Assembly: GCA_902765595.1 (NCBI GenBank)
Contig: CACXAQ010000021.1
Coordinates: forward strand, 1-33,906
Direction of reading: 5' to 3'
Origin: Oscillospiraceae bacterium
GTDB taxonomy: Bacteria > Bacillota > Clostridia > Oscillospirales > Oscillospiraceae
Length of the DNA: 33,906 bases
Shown in pieces: positions 431-10,160 of this stretch (position 1 is the first letter of the stretch; the number at the start of each line of letters is the position of its first letter). The translations under genes and the position numbers were made by a program. The notes beneath the pieces are model-generated. The model saw nothing but the letters and a program-made list of their open reading frames with translations, ran no database searches and had not been told where the DNA came from.

Positions 431-1771
431 ATGGTCTTTAACAGCTACAGCTTTTTGTTTCTCTTTTTCCCGATTTTCTTTATCCTCTACCGGAAGCTGC
501 CCGCCAGATGGCGCGCGGCCGCGCTCTGCGTCGGCAGTCTGGTGTTTTACGCCGTTGGCGTGTGGGGGCGGCTCTGGCAGCTTCTCCTGCTGCTGGGGAT
601 GACGGGCTTCGGCCTTCTGGGCTGCCTGCTGTTCCAGAAGGAGAGCCTGCGCAAAAAGGGCCTGCTGGCCCTGTGGGTGACCGTCACGGCGGCGCCGCTT
701 GCCTATGTGAAGCTGGCGGGGCTTTTCCTGAGCGAGACCCCCGGCCTGCCCCTGGGCCTGAGCTTTTACACCTTCCAGCTGATCGCCATGCTGGTCTACG
801 CCTGGAAGGGCGGCTGGGCCGGGGCGGTGGAGCTGGCTGCGGGGGTCCTGATGTTCCCCAAGCTGATCTCCGGGCCGCTGGCGGAGCCGGAGGAGCTGCT
901 GGCGGAGCTGGACGAGCCGAAACGGAACCGGGCCCTGCTGGACGAGGGCCTGGAGGAATTCATCCTGGGTCTCGGGTGCAAGGTGGTCATCGCGGACCAC
1001 CTGGCGGGCATCCTGGGGCAGATCCGGGTCCGGGGCGCGGGCGGCATCTCCGTGACGCTGGCATGGCTGGGCGTCCTGGGCTACGCGCTGCAGCTCTATT
1101 TCGACTTCTGGGGCTATTCCCAGATGGCCGTGGGCCTGGGGAAAATGCTGGGCATCCGGCTGCCGGAGAACTTTGACCACCCCTACTGCTCCAAGAGCGT
1201 GGTGGAATTCTGGCGGCGCTGGCACATCACCCTGGGCCGCTGGTTCAAGACCTATGTGTATATCCCCCTGGGCGGCAGCCGCCGGGGCTTTGGCCGGATG
1301 GTGCTGGCCACCTTCACAGTGTGGCTGCTCACCGGCGTCTGGCACGGGGCGGGCTGGAACTACGTCCTCTGGGGGCTGATGATGTTCGTGCTGATCCTGC
1401 TGGAGCGGCTCTTCTACGGCAGGGCGCTGAACAGGCTCCCCCTGCTGGGGCACCTCTACCTGCCGCTGGTGATCGCCCTGTCCTGGGTGTTCTTCATCAC
1501 CCCCGGGCCCAACGAGGCCTTTGCCTATTTTGCCCGCCTCTTCGGCGGCGGGGGCGCGGCCGCGGACCCCGGGGACTGGATCGCTGTGCTGCGCCGCTGC
1601 TGGCCCTATCTGGCGCTGGCCCTGGCGGGCAGCACCCCGCTGCCCGGACGGCTCTGGGCCAGACTCTCCGGCCGGGGCTTTGCCTGGGCGCTGCTCTTCG
1701 GGCTGTTCTGGCTGTGCGTCTATTTTATCGCCACCGCGGCCGGCGACCCGTTCCTGTACTTCAGCTTTTAA
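431..1771 (+). CDS. MBOAT family O-acyltransferase (AlgI-like)
   Basis: This 446-residue polytopic membrane protein belongs to the membrane-bound O-acyltransferase family, which moves acyl (usually acetyl) groups across the membrane to cell-wall or secreted polymers. Visible signatures are the FYTFQ segment (about 112-116), the KLISGPL motif (144-150), the WRRWHITLGRW block (His265) and GVWHGAGWNYVLWG with the likely catalytic His305. The AGAGGA at 417-422 supports the ATG at 431. The next gene starts 15 bases downstream and encodes a membrane-anchored SGNH protein, the usual extracytoplasmic partner in AlgI/AlgJ- or DltB/DltD-like pairs. The acceptor polymer cannot be read from sequence; dltA and dltC are absent nearby, which argues against D-alanylation here. 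Confidence 0.9.
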   Translation: MVFNSYSFLFLFFPIFFILYRKLPARWRAAALCVGSLVFYAVGVWGRLWQLLLLLGMTGFGLLGCLLFQKESLRKKGLLALWVTVTAAPLAYVKLAGLFLSETPGLPLGLSFYTFQLIAMLVYAWKGGWAGAVELAAGVLMFPKLISGPLAEPEELLAELDEPKRNRALLDEGLEEFILGLGCKVVIADHLAGILGQIRVRGAGGISVTLAWLGVLGYALQLYFDFWGYSQMAVGLGKMLGIRLPENFDHPYCSKSVVEFWRRWHITLGRWFKTYVYIPLGGSRRGFGRMVLATFTVWLLTGVWHGAGWNYVLWGLMMFVLILLERLFYGRALNRLPLLGHLYLPLVIALSWVFFITPGPNEAFAYFARLFGGGGAAADPGDWIAVLRRCWPYLALALAGSTPLPGRLWARLSGRGFAWALLFGLFWLCVYFIATAAGDPFLYFSF

Positions 1772-1786
1772 GGGAGGGGGAGAGCA

Positions 1787-2761
1787 ATGCGGAAACCGAA
1801 ACAGAAAAAATACTACGCTCTCGCCTGCATGAGGGCGATCCTGGTCCTGGCGGTGCTGCTGACGGCGGGGGGCTTCTTCCTGCGCCGGACCCTGCTGAAG
1901 GGGCTGCCCCAGTATGAGGGCGTGCCGTCCATCTCCGTGCCCATGATGCTCATCCAGGACAGCGGCCCCCTGCGCCAGGCCCGGGAGCGGGCCGCCTGGG
2001 AAGCGGCCCAGGCCGCCAGAGAACAGGCGGCAGCCGCGGAAGTGACGCCGGCCCCGGCGACGCCGGAGCCTACCGTGGAACCGACCCCAGAGCCTACCGT
2101 GGAACCAACGCCGGAACCTACCGTGGAACCAACGCCGGAACCTACACCCGAGCCCACCCCGGAGCCCACGCCCGGGGAGATGGTGCCGGAGAGCTTTTTT
2201 GACCACACCCTCTTCATCGGGGACTCCAAGATCGACGAGATGCGCAAGGCCGTGCGGATCGGCCAGGCCCAGTACTTTGCCGACACCAACTACAGCGTCT
2301 ACAACGTCTTTGACAAGCAGGCCACAGACCGGGATTTCACCGACGCCAAGCTGGAGTGGGTGCTGCAGAACTGGCAGTACGACCAAATCTATATCGCCCT
2401 GGGCTACAACGAGTGCGGCTATCCCTACGCGGGGCTGATGGACCAGTTCGACTACGTGCTCCGCCGGGTCCACGAGGCCCAGCCCCAGGCCCGCATCATC
2501 CTCCACGCGGTGATGCACGCCAACAAGTACGTCAGCAACTCCTACGAATACTATTCCGTGGAGAACCTGGAAAAGGTCAACAGCGGCCTGCGGGAGCTGG
2601 CGGACAGCTACGATTGGGTCTGGTTTGTGGACTGCAACGGCCCCTTTGTGGATGAGGACGGCTATCTCTACGACTATATGTCCATGGACGGGGAGCATCT
2701 GCTGCCGGACTACTCCCTGATCTGGGCGGAGGAGCTCCGCCGGCAGGCCATCACGGACTGA
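1787..2761 (+). CDS. Membrane-anchored SGNH/GDSL hydrolase-like protein
   Basis: This 324-residue protein has an N-terminal membrane segment (about 14-32), an alpha-helical Ala/Arg/Glu-rich stretch, a Thr-Glu-Pro repeat linker (about 92-129) and an extracellular SGNH domain. SGNH blocks are visible: GDS with Ser147, a GYN element with Gly206 and Asn208, and DGEH with Asp301 and His304. A strong GGGAGG sits before the ATG, immediately after the MBOAT stop, so the two are co-transcribed. By family precedent it would finish or edit the O-acylation begun by the MBOAT partner. Substrate unknown. Confidence 0.85.
   Translation: MRKPKQKKYYALACMRAILVLAVLLTAGGFFLRRTLLKGLPQYEGVPSISVPMMLIQDSGPLRQARERAAWEAAQAAREQAAAAEVTPAPATPEPTVEPTPEPTVEPTPEPTVEPTPEPTPEPTPEPTPGEMVPESFFDHTLFIGDSKIDEMRKAVRIGQAQYFADTNYSVYNVFDKQATDRDFTDAKLEWVLQNWQYDQIYIALGYNECGYPYAGLMDQFDYVLRRVHEAQPQARIILHAVMHANKYVSNSYEYYSVENLEKVNSGLRELADSYDWVWFVDCNGPFVDEDGYLYDYMSMDGEHLLPDYSLIWAEELRRQAITD
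2060..2173 (+). repeat. Tandem repeat coding a Pro-Thr-Glu linker
   Basis: About 114 bases encode repeated EPTP/EPTVEPTP units. The first copies share the 24-base period CCTACCGTGGAACC..., and later copies collapse to 12-base units. This type of linker spans the cell wall, and its length probably varies between strains by slippage. Confidence 0.8.
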
Positions 2762-2775
2762 AAAGAATAAAGGCA

Positions 2776-2811
2776 TCAACGCGGACGGGACCCCGTCCGC
2801 GTTGACTTTTC
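2776..2811 (+). terminator. Rho-independent terminator of the acylation pair
   Basis: A perfect 14-bp stem (2776-2789 with 2792-2805) with a minimal loop is followed by CTTTTCC. It lies 15 bases after the SGNH gene stop. Confidence 0.8.
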
Positions 2812-2830
2812 CGGCCGGAAAGGCTACAAT
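2802..2830 (+). promoter_or_regulatory. Promoter of the transporter gene, overlapping the terminator
   Basis: TTGACT (2802-2807), a 17-base spacer and TACAAT (2825-2830) form a near-consensus promoter. Its -35 box lies inside the 3' arm of the preceding terminator stem. Confidence 0.7.
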
Positions 2831-2865
2831 AAAGGCATCCAAATAAAGACAAAAGGGGCGAGCGC

Positions 2866-4197
2866 ATGAATAAAAAGCGGTCCGGTTTCAGCATGTGGCT
2901 GCTGATCTGGGGCCTGGGCCTGGCAGGTCAGATGTGCTGGAACGTGGAAAACCAATGGTTCAACACCTTCGTCTACGCCAAGATCGGCAAGGACCCGTCC
3001 ATCATCACGGGGATGCTGATCTGGTCCGCAGTGGCCACCACCTTCGCCAACTTCTTTTTCGGCACCTGGTCCGACCGTACCGGCAAGCGGCGGCACTTCG
3101 TCACCTGGGGCTACATCCTCTGGGGCATTTTCACCATCGCCTTCGGCCTGACGGAATTCATCAGCAAGGAGGTCTATACCCTGGTGGCCGTCACCGTGGT
3201 GCTGGCCGACAGCGTGATGAGCTTTTTCGGCTCCATGGGCAGCAGCGCGGGCTTCAGCACCTGGACCACCGACCTGCTGACGGATAAGAACCGGGGCGGC
3301 ATCGGCGCGGCCCTGGCCACCCAGCCGGTGCTGGGCACCCTGATCGGCACGGTGGTGGGCGGCATCTTGGTGGGGAAGGACGACAACTATATGCGCCTGT
3401 TTGTGGTGATGGGCCTGTTCGTGATCCTCTTCGGCGTGATCTCCCTCTTCACCATGGACGAGCGGGACGACGCGCCCGCCCATAAGGAGGGCTCCTTCTG
3501 GAAGCAGTTTTTCAGCGTGTTTGACTTCAAGCGCTTCTTCGCCCTGAAGGAGCTGGTGCTGGTGCACGTGGCCATCGCCATCTTTACCATCGGCTTCAAC
3601 GCCTATTTCGCCTACATCGGCAATTACCTGATCCACTACCTGGGCTACTCGGCGGCCCAGATGGGCATCATCGAGGCGGTGCCCCTGGTCTTCGCCATGC
3701 TCAGCGCCATCCCCATCGGTATGCTCATCAACCGGGACAAGCACCCCTATGTGGGCATCGCGGCGGTGCTCTTCAACGTCATCGGCCTGCTGATCATGTA
3801 CCCCGTCAAGGCTGCGTCCGTGGACCCCTCCCAGCTCTTCAATCTGCGGATCTGGCTGGGCATCTTCATCATGGGCATCGGCTATGTGGGCATCCTCCAG
3901 GTCACCAAGGTCTGGGCCAAGCAGCTCTATCCGGAAAACGCCAAGGGCCAATTCGAGGGCATCTGGACCATCTTCTTCGTCCTGATCCCCATGGTGGGCG
4001 GCTCCCTCATCGGGGAGGCCGTGGTCAAGACCGGCGGCGAGACCTTTGTCAACGCCACCAGCGGCCAGACCGAGTACATCCCCAACGGCAACATCTTCCT
4101 GGTGGGCGCCATCGTGGTGCTCTTCACCCTGATCCCGCTGCTGCTGTCCATCAAGTATCACAGGCAGCGCCAGGCGGAGAAAACCAGCGCCGCCTGA
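2866..4197 (+). CDS. MFS / GPH-type sugar:cation symporter
   Basis: This 443-residue protein has about twelve membrane segments. The first cytoplasmic loop reads WSDRTGKRRHF (about 67-77), a form of the loop 2-3 motif of glycoside-pentoside-hexuronide symporters (MelB/LacS relatives), and the short N-terminus and lack of a regulatory tail also fit. A charged central loop (DERDDAPAHKEGSF, about 199-212) separates the two six-helix halves. It is a single-gene unit with its own promoter and terminator. A sugar or glycoside is the likely cargo, but no catabolic gene adjoins it, so the substrate is unknown. Confidence 0.8.
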   Translation: MNKKRSGFSMWLLIWGLGLAGQMCWNVENQWFNTFVYAKIGKDPSIITGMLIWSAVATTFANFFFGTWSDRTGKRRHFVTWGYILWGIFTIAFGLTEFISKEVYTLVAVTVVLADSVMSFFGSMGSSAGFSTWTTDLLTDKNRGGIGAALATQPVLGTLIGTVVGGILVGKDDNYMRLFVVMGLFVILFGVISLFTMDERDDAPAHKEGSFWKQFFSVFDFKRFFALKELVLVHVAIAIFTIGFNAYFAYIGNYLIHYLGYSAAQMGIIEAVPLVFAMLSAIPIGMLINRDKHPYVGIAAVLFNVIGLLIMYPVKAASVDPSQLFNLRIWLGIFIMGIGYVGILQVTKVWAKQLYPENAKGQFEGIWTIFFVLIPMVGGSLIGEAVVKTGGETFVNATSGQTEYIPNGNIFLVGAIVVLFTLIPLLLSIKYHRQRQAEKTSAA

Positions 4198-9240: not shown

Positions 9241-9269
9241 ATTATATCACAGCGCAGCAAAAAACACAA
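9241..9269 (-). promoter_or_regulatory. Promoter of the membrane-protein pair
   Basis: On the minus strand, TTGTGT (9269-9264) and TATAAT (9246-9241) are separated by 17 bases. Confidence 0.7.
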
Positions 9270-9581
9270 TTTGCAGAAAGCCTTCATCGTTTTTTCGAAT
9301 TTGGTGCTCCAGCGGGGATTCGCATGCATTTCATTTCGCCTTGCGGGGAGCGGCAAAATGAAATAAAAGAATCAGCCAGTGTTTGCACTGGCTGATGCAC
9401 ATTCCACCTTGCGGGGCCCGAAAAACGCATCGGGCTTACGCCGATCCTCGCGTTTTTCGACCGCTGCGGAAATTGCGGCCTTGCTTTTTCTGCCACTGGC
9501 AGCGCAAAGCCGCACCACTGGCAGCGCAAAGCCGCAATTCCCCCGGGGCTTTCGATTTTGATTCGAATCCCCTTGAAGAAA

Positions 9582-9613
9582 AGAGACAGCCCCCCAAGGG
9601 GGACTGTCTTTTT
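9582..9613 (-). terminator. Repeat unit 1 terminator-like hairpin
   Basis: AGACAG-C-CCCCC / GGGGG-A-CTGTCT with flanking A and T runs, directly downstream (minus strand) of a tRNA-Lys-like CCA tail. Confidence 0.6.
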
Positions 9614-9640
9614 CTGGTGCTCCAGCGGGGATTCGCATGC

Positions 9641-9831
9641 ATCTCTTTTCCCCTTGCGGGAGACGGTGAAAAGAGATAAAGGAATTCGCCAGTGTCCGCA
9701 CTGGCTCATGCACATTCCACCTTGCGGGGCCCGAAAAACGCATCGGGCTTACGCCGATCCTCGCGTTTTTCGACCGCTGCGGAAATTGCGGCCTTGCTTA
9801 TTCTGCCACTGGCAGCGCAAAGCCGCAATTC
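9641..9831 (-). ncRNA. Structured body of the tRNA-tail repeat (unit 2)
   Basis: Four stems are visible: ATCTCTTTTC (9641-9650) with GAAAAGAGAT (9668-9677); GCCAGTG/CACTGGC (9688-9705); CGAAAAACGC (9732-9741) with GCGTTTTTCG (9763-9772); and the GGAAATTGCGGC region (9781-9792) with GCCGCAATT (9822-9830) around TGCCA/TGGCA. The same stems occur in unit 1. Whether the RNA is stable or functional is inference. It would be transcribed as the trailer of the tRNA operon if the intervening terminators leak. Confidence 0.35.
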
Positions 9832-9871
9832 CCCCGGGGCTTTCGATTTTGATTCGAATCCCCGTGAAGAA

Positions 9872-9906
9872 AAGAGACAGCCCCCCAAGGGGGACTGTCT
9901 TTTTTT
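9872..9906 (-). terminator. Repeat unit 2 terminator-like hairpin
   Basis: The same stem as in unit 1 (9875-9880/9882-9886 with 9889-9893/9895-9900), again placed directly after a tRNA-Lys-like tail on the minus strand. Confidence 0.6.
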
Positions 9907-10051
9907 CTGGTGCTCCAGCGGGGATTCGCATGCATCTCTTTTCCCCTTGCGGGAGACGGGGAAAAGAGATAAAGGAATTCGCCAGTGTCCGCACTGGCTC
10001 ATGCACACGCCCCCGGCGTGCGCAATTTTGATTCGAATCCCCTTGAAGCAG

Positions 10052-10083
10052 AAAAACAGACAGGCAAAAGCCTGTCTGTTTTT
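10052..10083 (-). terminator. Terminator of the tRNA operon after tRNA-Lys
   Basis: AAAAACAGACAGGC (10052-10065) and its perfect complement (10070-10083) flank a four-base loop, one base beyond the tRNA-Lys CCA. On the minus strand it ends in a T run. Confidence 0.75.
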
Positions 10084-10084
10084 C

Positions 10085-10160
10085 TGGTGCTCCAGCGGGG
10101 ATTCGAACCCCGGACACCCTGCTTAAAAGGCAGGTGCTCTGCCTGCTGAGCTACTGGGGC
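10085..10160 (-). tRNA. tRNA-Lys (anticodon TTT)
   Basis: 76 bases with encoded CCA. The anticodon arm is CCTGC-CTTTTAA-GCAGG, and the T arm is CGGGG-TTCGAAT-CCCCG. The acceptor 5' strand is GCCCCAG against CTGGAGC, which leaves a C3-A70 mismatch, unusual for a working tRNA. The 3' 21 bases are copied exactly in the three downstream repeats. Confidence 0.9.

Follow-up and report, generated by a model that had tools for sequence, protein, structure and literature searches.

Introduction

The closest described layout to the one reported here is that of the RtT repeats behind Escherichia coli tRNA genes, which Rfam (RF00391) classes as cis-regulatory and a RefSeq note describes as 'rtT sRNA, processed from tyrT transcript'. 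A second point of comparison is provided by integrative elements, among which those that employ a tyrosine recombinase are usually recognised by an insert with the tRNA 3' end directly repeated on either side; although essential, tRNA genes are preferred targets of mobile DNA. A third is the REP family, in which, according to PMC6006769, a GTAG or GTGG tetranucleotide lies 5' of the hairpin. In a survey of stem-loop sequences, tRNA-related clusters were removed (PMC2267715). The literature searched, mostly at listing level, yielded neither a description of elements such as those below nor a paper on RtT.

Results

The RtT repeats of E. coli K-12

In K-12, four RtT matches score 133–138 bits. 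The units behind tyrT and tyrV carry copies of their own tail, nucleotides 58–76. Free tail copies with at most two mismatches also lie 79–137 nt behind lysT, lysW, lysY, lysZ, lysQ, argQ, argZ and argV, i.e., at five of five lys genes (L333) and three of four arg genes (L332), and none was found in the fetched tRNA clusters L329, L330 and L335. The RtT model scores the lys units at 47–60 bits; five RtT matches in the lys cluster are without annotation in the K-12 record.

In addition, an inverted piece of the tail precedes the core at tyrV (10 nt exact, reached by 2 of 1000 shuffles) and at tyrT and argV (8 nt, reached by 30 of 1000 shuffles each). The exact pieces in the other E. coli left arms, at 4–5 nt, are at chance level, and near-match left arms can be made out by eye behind the lys genes (CGTGTAGGAT at lysW, for example). 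The K-12 tyrV core is present in 4692 of 5426 E. coli genomes, at 1 to 10 places in each. The last tRNA-Tyr is followed by no unit in one strain, by one in another and by three in K-12, with closely similar flanks after the last tail. The layout is therefore already known in pieces from E. coli, and the remark in the original prediction that no named element of this form was known does not stand.

A three-unit array behind tRNA-Lys

The window, by which we mean the whole 33,906-nt stretch of Oscillospiraceae DNA that was analysed, contains five tRNAs and nothing else at Rfam gathering scores. RtT has no match in it at the gathering threshold and none at E<=5 in 9250–10160; the weak Rfam matches (E<=5) in the array lie far below the tRNA scores. 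The features of the array are as follows.

10085..10160, minus strand: tRNA-Lys (TTT), the host gene, nucleotides 56–76 of which are copied (ARAGORN and Rfam RF00005)
10049..10086, minus strand: terminator-like hairpin T1 at the tRNA CCA, with perfect 17-bp arms, an A-run and a T-run (inverted repeat I1)
9908..10084, minus strand: unit 1, consisting of T1, left arm, core P0-P1-P2 and tail copy (model R2, 134 bits at 9920–10042)
10035..10042, minus strand: left closing arm of unit 1, the reverse complement of tRNA nucleotides 57–64
9908..9927, minus strand: tail copy of unit 1, tRNA nucleotides 57–76 (0 mismatches in 20)
9615..9907, minus strand: unit 2, consisting of hairpin T2, left arm, B insertion, core and tail copy
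9869..9907, minus strand: terminator-like hairpin T2 (read from the sequence)
9856..9863, minus strand: left closing arm of unit 2
9716..9834, minus strand: dispersed repeat B within unit 2, ends approximate (DNA search with unit 2, query 102–220)
9615..9634, minus strand: tail copy of unit 2
9302..9614, minus strand: unit 3, consisting of hairpin T3, left arm, B insertion, core and tail copy
9578..9614, minus strand: terminator-like hairpin T3 (read from the sequence)
9565..9572, minus strand: left closing arm of unit 3
9302..9321, minus strand: tail copy of unit 3, with no hairpin after it

Three exact copies of the 21-mer TGGTGCTCCAGCGGGGATTCG, at 9302, 9615 and 9908, repeat the 3' end of the tRNA-Lys gene, so that each unit closes with an exact copy of tRNA-Lys nucleotides 56–76, CCA included. 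A chance origin of such an exact 21-mer match in 34 kb is not expected, and the predicted tail repeats are thus real. Read in its own direction, the tRNA is followed by a hairpin, unit 1 and its tail, by a second hairpin, unit 2 and its tail, and by a third hairpin, unit 3 and its tail. A hairpin had been proposed after every tail copy; it is present after those at 9908 and 9615, and the last one, at 9302, lacks it.

Every body in the array is flanked by GGGGATTCG and CGAATCCCC. The body starts with GGGGATTC, the reverse complement of tRNA nucleotides 57–64, and ends with GAATCCCC, which is the tail itself. By coordinates, and with both 8-nt arms counted, the bodies measure 123 nt in unit 1, 237 nt in unit 2 and 259 nt in unit 3, in agreement with the stem-rich bodies bounded by T-stem-like arms that had been described. 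Units 2 and 3 contain the extra repeat B (about 9716–9834 and 9403–9541), which, by comparison with other copies, sits in their first hairpin. Repeat B is a separate repeat with many copies in the genome and the genus (L004–L006, L011–L014), lying within the first hairpin of some units.

The acceptor stem of the window tRNA-Lys has a C3.A70 mismatch, which is found in two of 48 distinct tRNA sequences (window and L054–L173), both of them tRNA-Lys. The gene downstream of the array was found only in its own genome among the 102 searched, and its synteny is therefore not usable.

The array belongs to a dispersed family

Covariance model R1, representing the right half of the core, was built from seven sequences and contains one unintended pair. 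It matched in 54 of the 102 genomes of the genus, the window's own included. This kind of search among relatives had been named as the check on the original prediction; it revealed a dispersed family with covarying stems, and a chance local duplication is not borne out. Around the matches listed, 120 loci were fetched and rescanned together with the window, L023 and L010; of the 149 model matches, three (33.7, 33.5 and 28.4 bits) were dropped, leaving 146 copies. Counts of element distances below use 150 places among the matches listed. A DNA search with unit 2 matched 48 of 99 genomes, among the matches listed mostly via repeat B. In named genomes, an exact-pattern search found 15 stretches, in bins of uncultured Clostridia, Clostridiales, Oscillospiraceae and Ruminococcaceae; the title of one refers to goat rumen and that of another to red deer.

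A same-strand ARAGORN tRNA lies upstream in the locus for 110 of the 146 copies, and within 600 nt for 103. The distance behind the tRNA is mostly 77–90 nt. The host tRNAs comprise 16 isoacceptors, including Arg-ACG (20 copies), Ser-GGA (13) and Leu-GAG (9). Some of the 43 copies with no ARAGORN tRNA within 600 nt upstream are at contig ends or behind broken tRNAs. No copy was seen with a gene inside. As the genomes are draft assemblies, tandem copy numbers may be wrong.

Outside the genus, model R2 matched in three of 294 other genomes searched in the order. In G369, of the same family, two units lie 294 nt apart behind a tRNA-Leu, and one further copy ends, by reading, in a tRNA-like tail. 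G215 has a single weak match, and the third genome, G211, is considered in the Discussion.

The ends follow the local tRNA

The right end of the copies matches nucleotides 57–76 of the copy's own tRNA at 17.5 of 20 positions on average, versus 10.65 for tRNAs of other kinds, and in 96 of 103 copies no other isoacceptor matches as well as the own one. The left 8-mer follows the same rule: compared with the reverse complement of nucleotides 57–64, it agrees at 7.62 of 8 positions with its own tRNA and at 5.60 with others. Erosion is greater in the outer left part, which covers the acceptor arm (7.11 versus 5.58 of 12, n = 101). At L071:1047 and L119, the pair at position 64 is altered on both sides relative to the tRNA. 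A model-free check used the first 30 loci each from the tRNA-Lys and tRNA-Arg searches, 56 of them usable and four too short. A free tail copy was present 40–330 nt downstream in 17 of the 56 loci, and in 4 and 1 of the control intervals further downstream and upstream, respectively.

In the fresh-looking copies L115 and L070, the inverted copy extends to TGG with little or nothing missing, and the tRNA end, the hairpin and the inverted tRNA end thereby form one palindrome. The same holds for L074, whose tRNA is absent from the locus. One long palindrome of this type is what would result if the units arose by replication accidents at terminator palindromes, with no mobile element involved: fold-back would give the inverted tail, and slippage between tails would give tandem units. 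The near-perfect Watson–Crick inner stems described below also fit palindrome correction. However, local slippage cannot supply related cores of ~100 bp at many tRNAs and in many genomes, and we regard this explanation as improbable.

Cores are shared between different tRNAs

For 96 copies, both the tRNA and the genome are known. Their nearest core is at the same tRNA in 36 cases, with 8.5 expected by shuffling, and part of the family is thus inherited in place. The nearest core is in the same genome in only seven cases (5.1 expected), and this test gave no sign of recent spread within one genome. In 53 cases, the nearest core differs in both its tRNA and its genome, and cores at different tRNAs reach identities of up to 94%. 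Over time, then, cores have switched from one tRNA to another, and part of the family has remained where it was.

By eye, a family II core with the same tRNA-tail layout is found at L193, L197, L199, L206, L224, L230, L231 and L233, and a third core type, again with this layout, at L205, L247 and the second unit of L230. At L023, the hairpin and left arm of a tRNA-Ala element occur exactly twice (1420–1479 and 2793–2852). In the second copy, this segment abuts the right junction of a tRNA-Lys core in inverted orientation, which hints at an exchange there.

Filled and empty loci

A filled tRNA-Arg locus (L137) aligns cleanly in a flank BLAST with an empty one (L229), the filled locus having 180 extra nt. 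The displaced tail copy of L137 is followed directly by the native terminator and downstream DNA. This is the only clean filled/empty pair, and the filled tRNA is itself truncated. The agreement of L228 and L234 with L137 is less clean, and the pairs L090/L246, L079/L235 and L092/L215 have distant flanks in common, with a junction that alignment does not resolve.

At L080, a second copy lies directly inside the T loop of a broken tRNA-Arg, without the palindrome. The first tRNA-Arg of this locus has its own element, and the second, broken one has another core. Between the two, at 700–3500, is an uncharacterised membrane-protein-like gene (Na/phosphate cotransporter-like, by reading); this segment may represent an island inserted at the anticodon loop.

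A displaced tRNA 3' end beyond an insert could also mark a minimal integrative element of a tyrosine recombinase, with the tails as attachment-site identity blocks and the integrases acting in trans. Such a reading would explain the direct repeats around the unit, and a match to the integrase family PF00589 lies about 0.5 kb from the L137 element (G034:C12) and another 0.4 kb from an element in G137:C13. Among the 74 elements checked in eight genomes (out of 104 matches there), however, only three have a PF00589 match within 5 kb, which speaks against a linked integrase; in the window's genome, none of the 11 PF00589 matches is on the window contig. Furthermore, one core serves 16 isoacceptors and the inverted arm is left without explanation, and we therefore give this reading little weight.

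The inner stems look like DNA hairpins

The R2 structure was drawn by eye on a 15-sequence MAFFT alignment (A2), in which 96.9% of the paired cells are paired. In an alignment of 122 copies (121 distinct) fitted to the structure, the value is 96.2%, compared with 76.0% after shuffling and 33–48% after sliding. Both sides have changed in 949 cells, and such changes affect 34 of the 41 pairs. In alignment A3, the rows of window units 2 and 3 are misplaced at the left side because of the B insertion.

We next consider the mismatches. All element stems together contain 48 G.T and 30 A.C in 4830 cells, divided between the inner stems (25 and 25) and the closing stem (23 and 5). As a control, 48 distinct tRNAs from the fetched loci have 53 G.T and 8 A.C in 576 in their acceptor and T stems. 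Compared with these, the inner stems differ (p 3e-5), as do all stems together (p 0.001), whereas the closing stem does not (p 0.54). Since G.T equals A.C in the inner stems, unlike in tRNA stems, the inner hairpins look kept at the DNA level. They are nearly perfect on both strands, as would be expected of DNA hairpins or palindrome correction, while the closing stem, which contains the tail, behaves like tRNA. P1 has a strand-specific tandem G.A mismatch in about half of the copies (58–59 of 120 at its two pairs), which recalls the imperfect palindromes of ssDNA transposons.

These counts bear on the possibility that the unit is a structured RNA, read through from the tRNA transcript and acting as a regulatory, decoy or trailer RNA, in line with the database labels of RtT. 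The strong stem covariation, the G.T excess of the closing stem and the strand specificity of the P1 mismatch would all agree with this. On the other hand, the mismatch ratios of the inner stems and of all stems depart from those of tRNA stems in the same loci, and each unit starts with a terminator-like hairpin. A structured RNA consequently seems unlikely, and the decoy and trailer-RNA functions suggested in the original prediction are disfavoured, the G.T excess of the closing stem notwithstanding. An argument for RNA function from covariation alone was set aside after the wobble count, which is unfavourable to it in the inner stems, though not in the closing stem.

Candidates for the mobilising enzyme

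A RAYT profile built from nine proteins detected RAYT proteins in 48 of the 102 genomes of the genus, with four matches in the window's genome. Elements and RAYTs occur together in 38 genomes, elements only in 16, RAYTs only in 10 and neither in 38 (Fisher p 5e-7, with kinship and completeness ignored), and the correlation of their copy numbers is 0.56. IS200-type Y1 proteins had no association with the element (p 0.26, kinship ignored).

A RAYT lies within 300 nt of only two of 150 elements, both at tRNA-Thr and neither in the window's genome. These distances were taken with a shorter RAYT list and repeated with 123 RAYT places, giving the same result. In 20 loci from the RAYT search, R1 had four matches at E<=10, the best being a degenerate one beside the RAYT of L282 (31.5 bits). 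The palindromes at the RAYT genes of the genus are of another type (GTAGGGGCG), and this, together with the small number of elements near a RAYT, makes RAYT a candidate rather than a finding. Palindromes of the GTAGGGGCG type lie inside and beside some of the RAYT genes in L279–L298, and the RAYT proteins of these loci contain in-frame stretches resembling translated palindromic repeats (e.g., GDPCGRP and RATARVAPT).

Discussion

Our analyses revealed units that are laid out in the same manner behind 16 tRNA isoacceptors, with ends specific to the local tRNA and with related cores at different tRNAs. We consider it somewhat probable that they are gene-less, hairpin-rich, non-coding DNA elements specialised to tRNA genes, for which the T loop is a safe site and the tail copies keep the tRNA whole. 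The original prediction of a small element spreading beside tRNA genes through the T arm is in accord with the dispersed family, the tRNA-following ends, the empty site and the covarying stems.

According to the mechanism that we propose, a unit would enter a tRNA gene at the T loop, adjoining C56, and the product would consist of the tRNA, the hairpin, the inverted tail arm, the core and a second copy of tRNA nucleotides 57–76. Both the tail copy and the inverted arm would be supplied by the target tRNA, possibly by template switching at the terminator palindrome, which would yield a tail copied both ways, and the inner hairpins would be kept at the DNA level. With the same tRNA tail at its start and its end, a unit can be gained, lost or repeated in tandem and leave the tRNA gene intact; because both ends come from the target, one core can live behind many tRNAs. 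From the comparisons above, we infer true transposition, with the T loop as the putative entry point. An ssDNA transposase that acts in trans is the best candidate for the mobilising enzyme, for example one of the RAYTs encoded in these genomes. Neither excision nor insertion of a unit was observed. Units could be gained and lost, as in the tandem arrays and in the E. coli copy-number alleles, through plain recombination between tails. A tRNA-primed retroelement, with the tail as primer site, and a Cas1-like target duplication were also considered.

More speculatively, the tRNA-tail elements may form an unrecognised, phylum-spanning class of gene-less selfish DNA, in which hairpin cores are placed at the T loop of nearly any tRNA gene by an ssDNA (HUH) type transposase, with the target tail copied once forward and once inverted in the process. 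If this is true, every event leaves the tRNA restored, a single core is able to spread to many tRNAs of the cell, and the E. coli RtT, filed as a regulatory RNA, is a member by design. The units suggest a landing strategy in which both element ends are supplied by the target and nothing is broken. A re-examination of RtT, an annotated sRNA, as DNA is suggested. Units with the same layout occur in K-12, so a laboratory strain is available in which to test the idea. On the larger scale, structure-based RNA discovery could be misled by DNA palindromes, for which the count of G.T versus A.C mismatches provides a simple test.

Among the known systems, the integrative elements (phages, ICEs and islands) share with our units a copy of the tRNA 3' end displaced to the far side of the insert and the identity block of this end on both sides. 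They differ in that the present units have no genes, measure 0.15–0.3 kb, are rarely near an integrase and use one core at many tRNAs. REP/BIME sequences and their RAYTs are similar in being gene-less, dispersed, imperfect DNA palindromes, with RAYT genes in the genus that are associated with the element. However, the element has a tRNA target and tail copies and has a RAYT gene within 300 nt at only two of 150 places, and neither GTAG nor GTGG is found in unit 1 on either strand. Within the order, the dispersed three-hairpin repeats of G211, from another family, have the same P2 apex (TTTTCCCGTCCCCCGCAAGGGAAAA) and the same three-hairpin plan, but show no tRNA and no tRNA-tail ends in the 12 fetched loci (L301, L305, L308, L310, L312, L314, L316, L318, L320, L322, L324 and L326).

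The closest likeness is with RtT. In both cases, units with a hairpin core lie behind a tRNA and each closes with the tail of that tRNA (nucleotides 58/59–76 in E. coli), an inverted tail piece precedes the core (at tyrV, tyrT and argV), and the units are in tandem as in the window array; in E. coli, their copy number varies among strains. On the other hand, the core sequence of RtT is unrelated to that of the Oscillospiraceae family, by reading the terminator-like palindrome between the tRNA and the left arm is absent except at lysQ, and three tRNA kinds are seen in E. coli compared with the 16 isoacceptors here. What our work adds is an unrelated family in another phylum. This family occupies many tRNA hosts, its two ends both follow the target, different tRNAs share its cores, and there is evidence that its inner hairpins are DNA.
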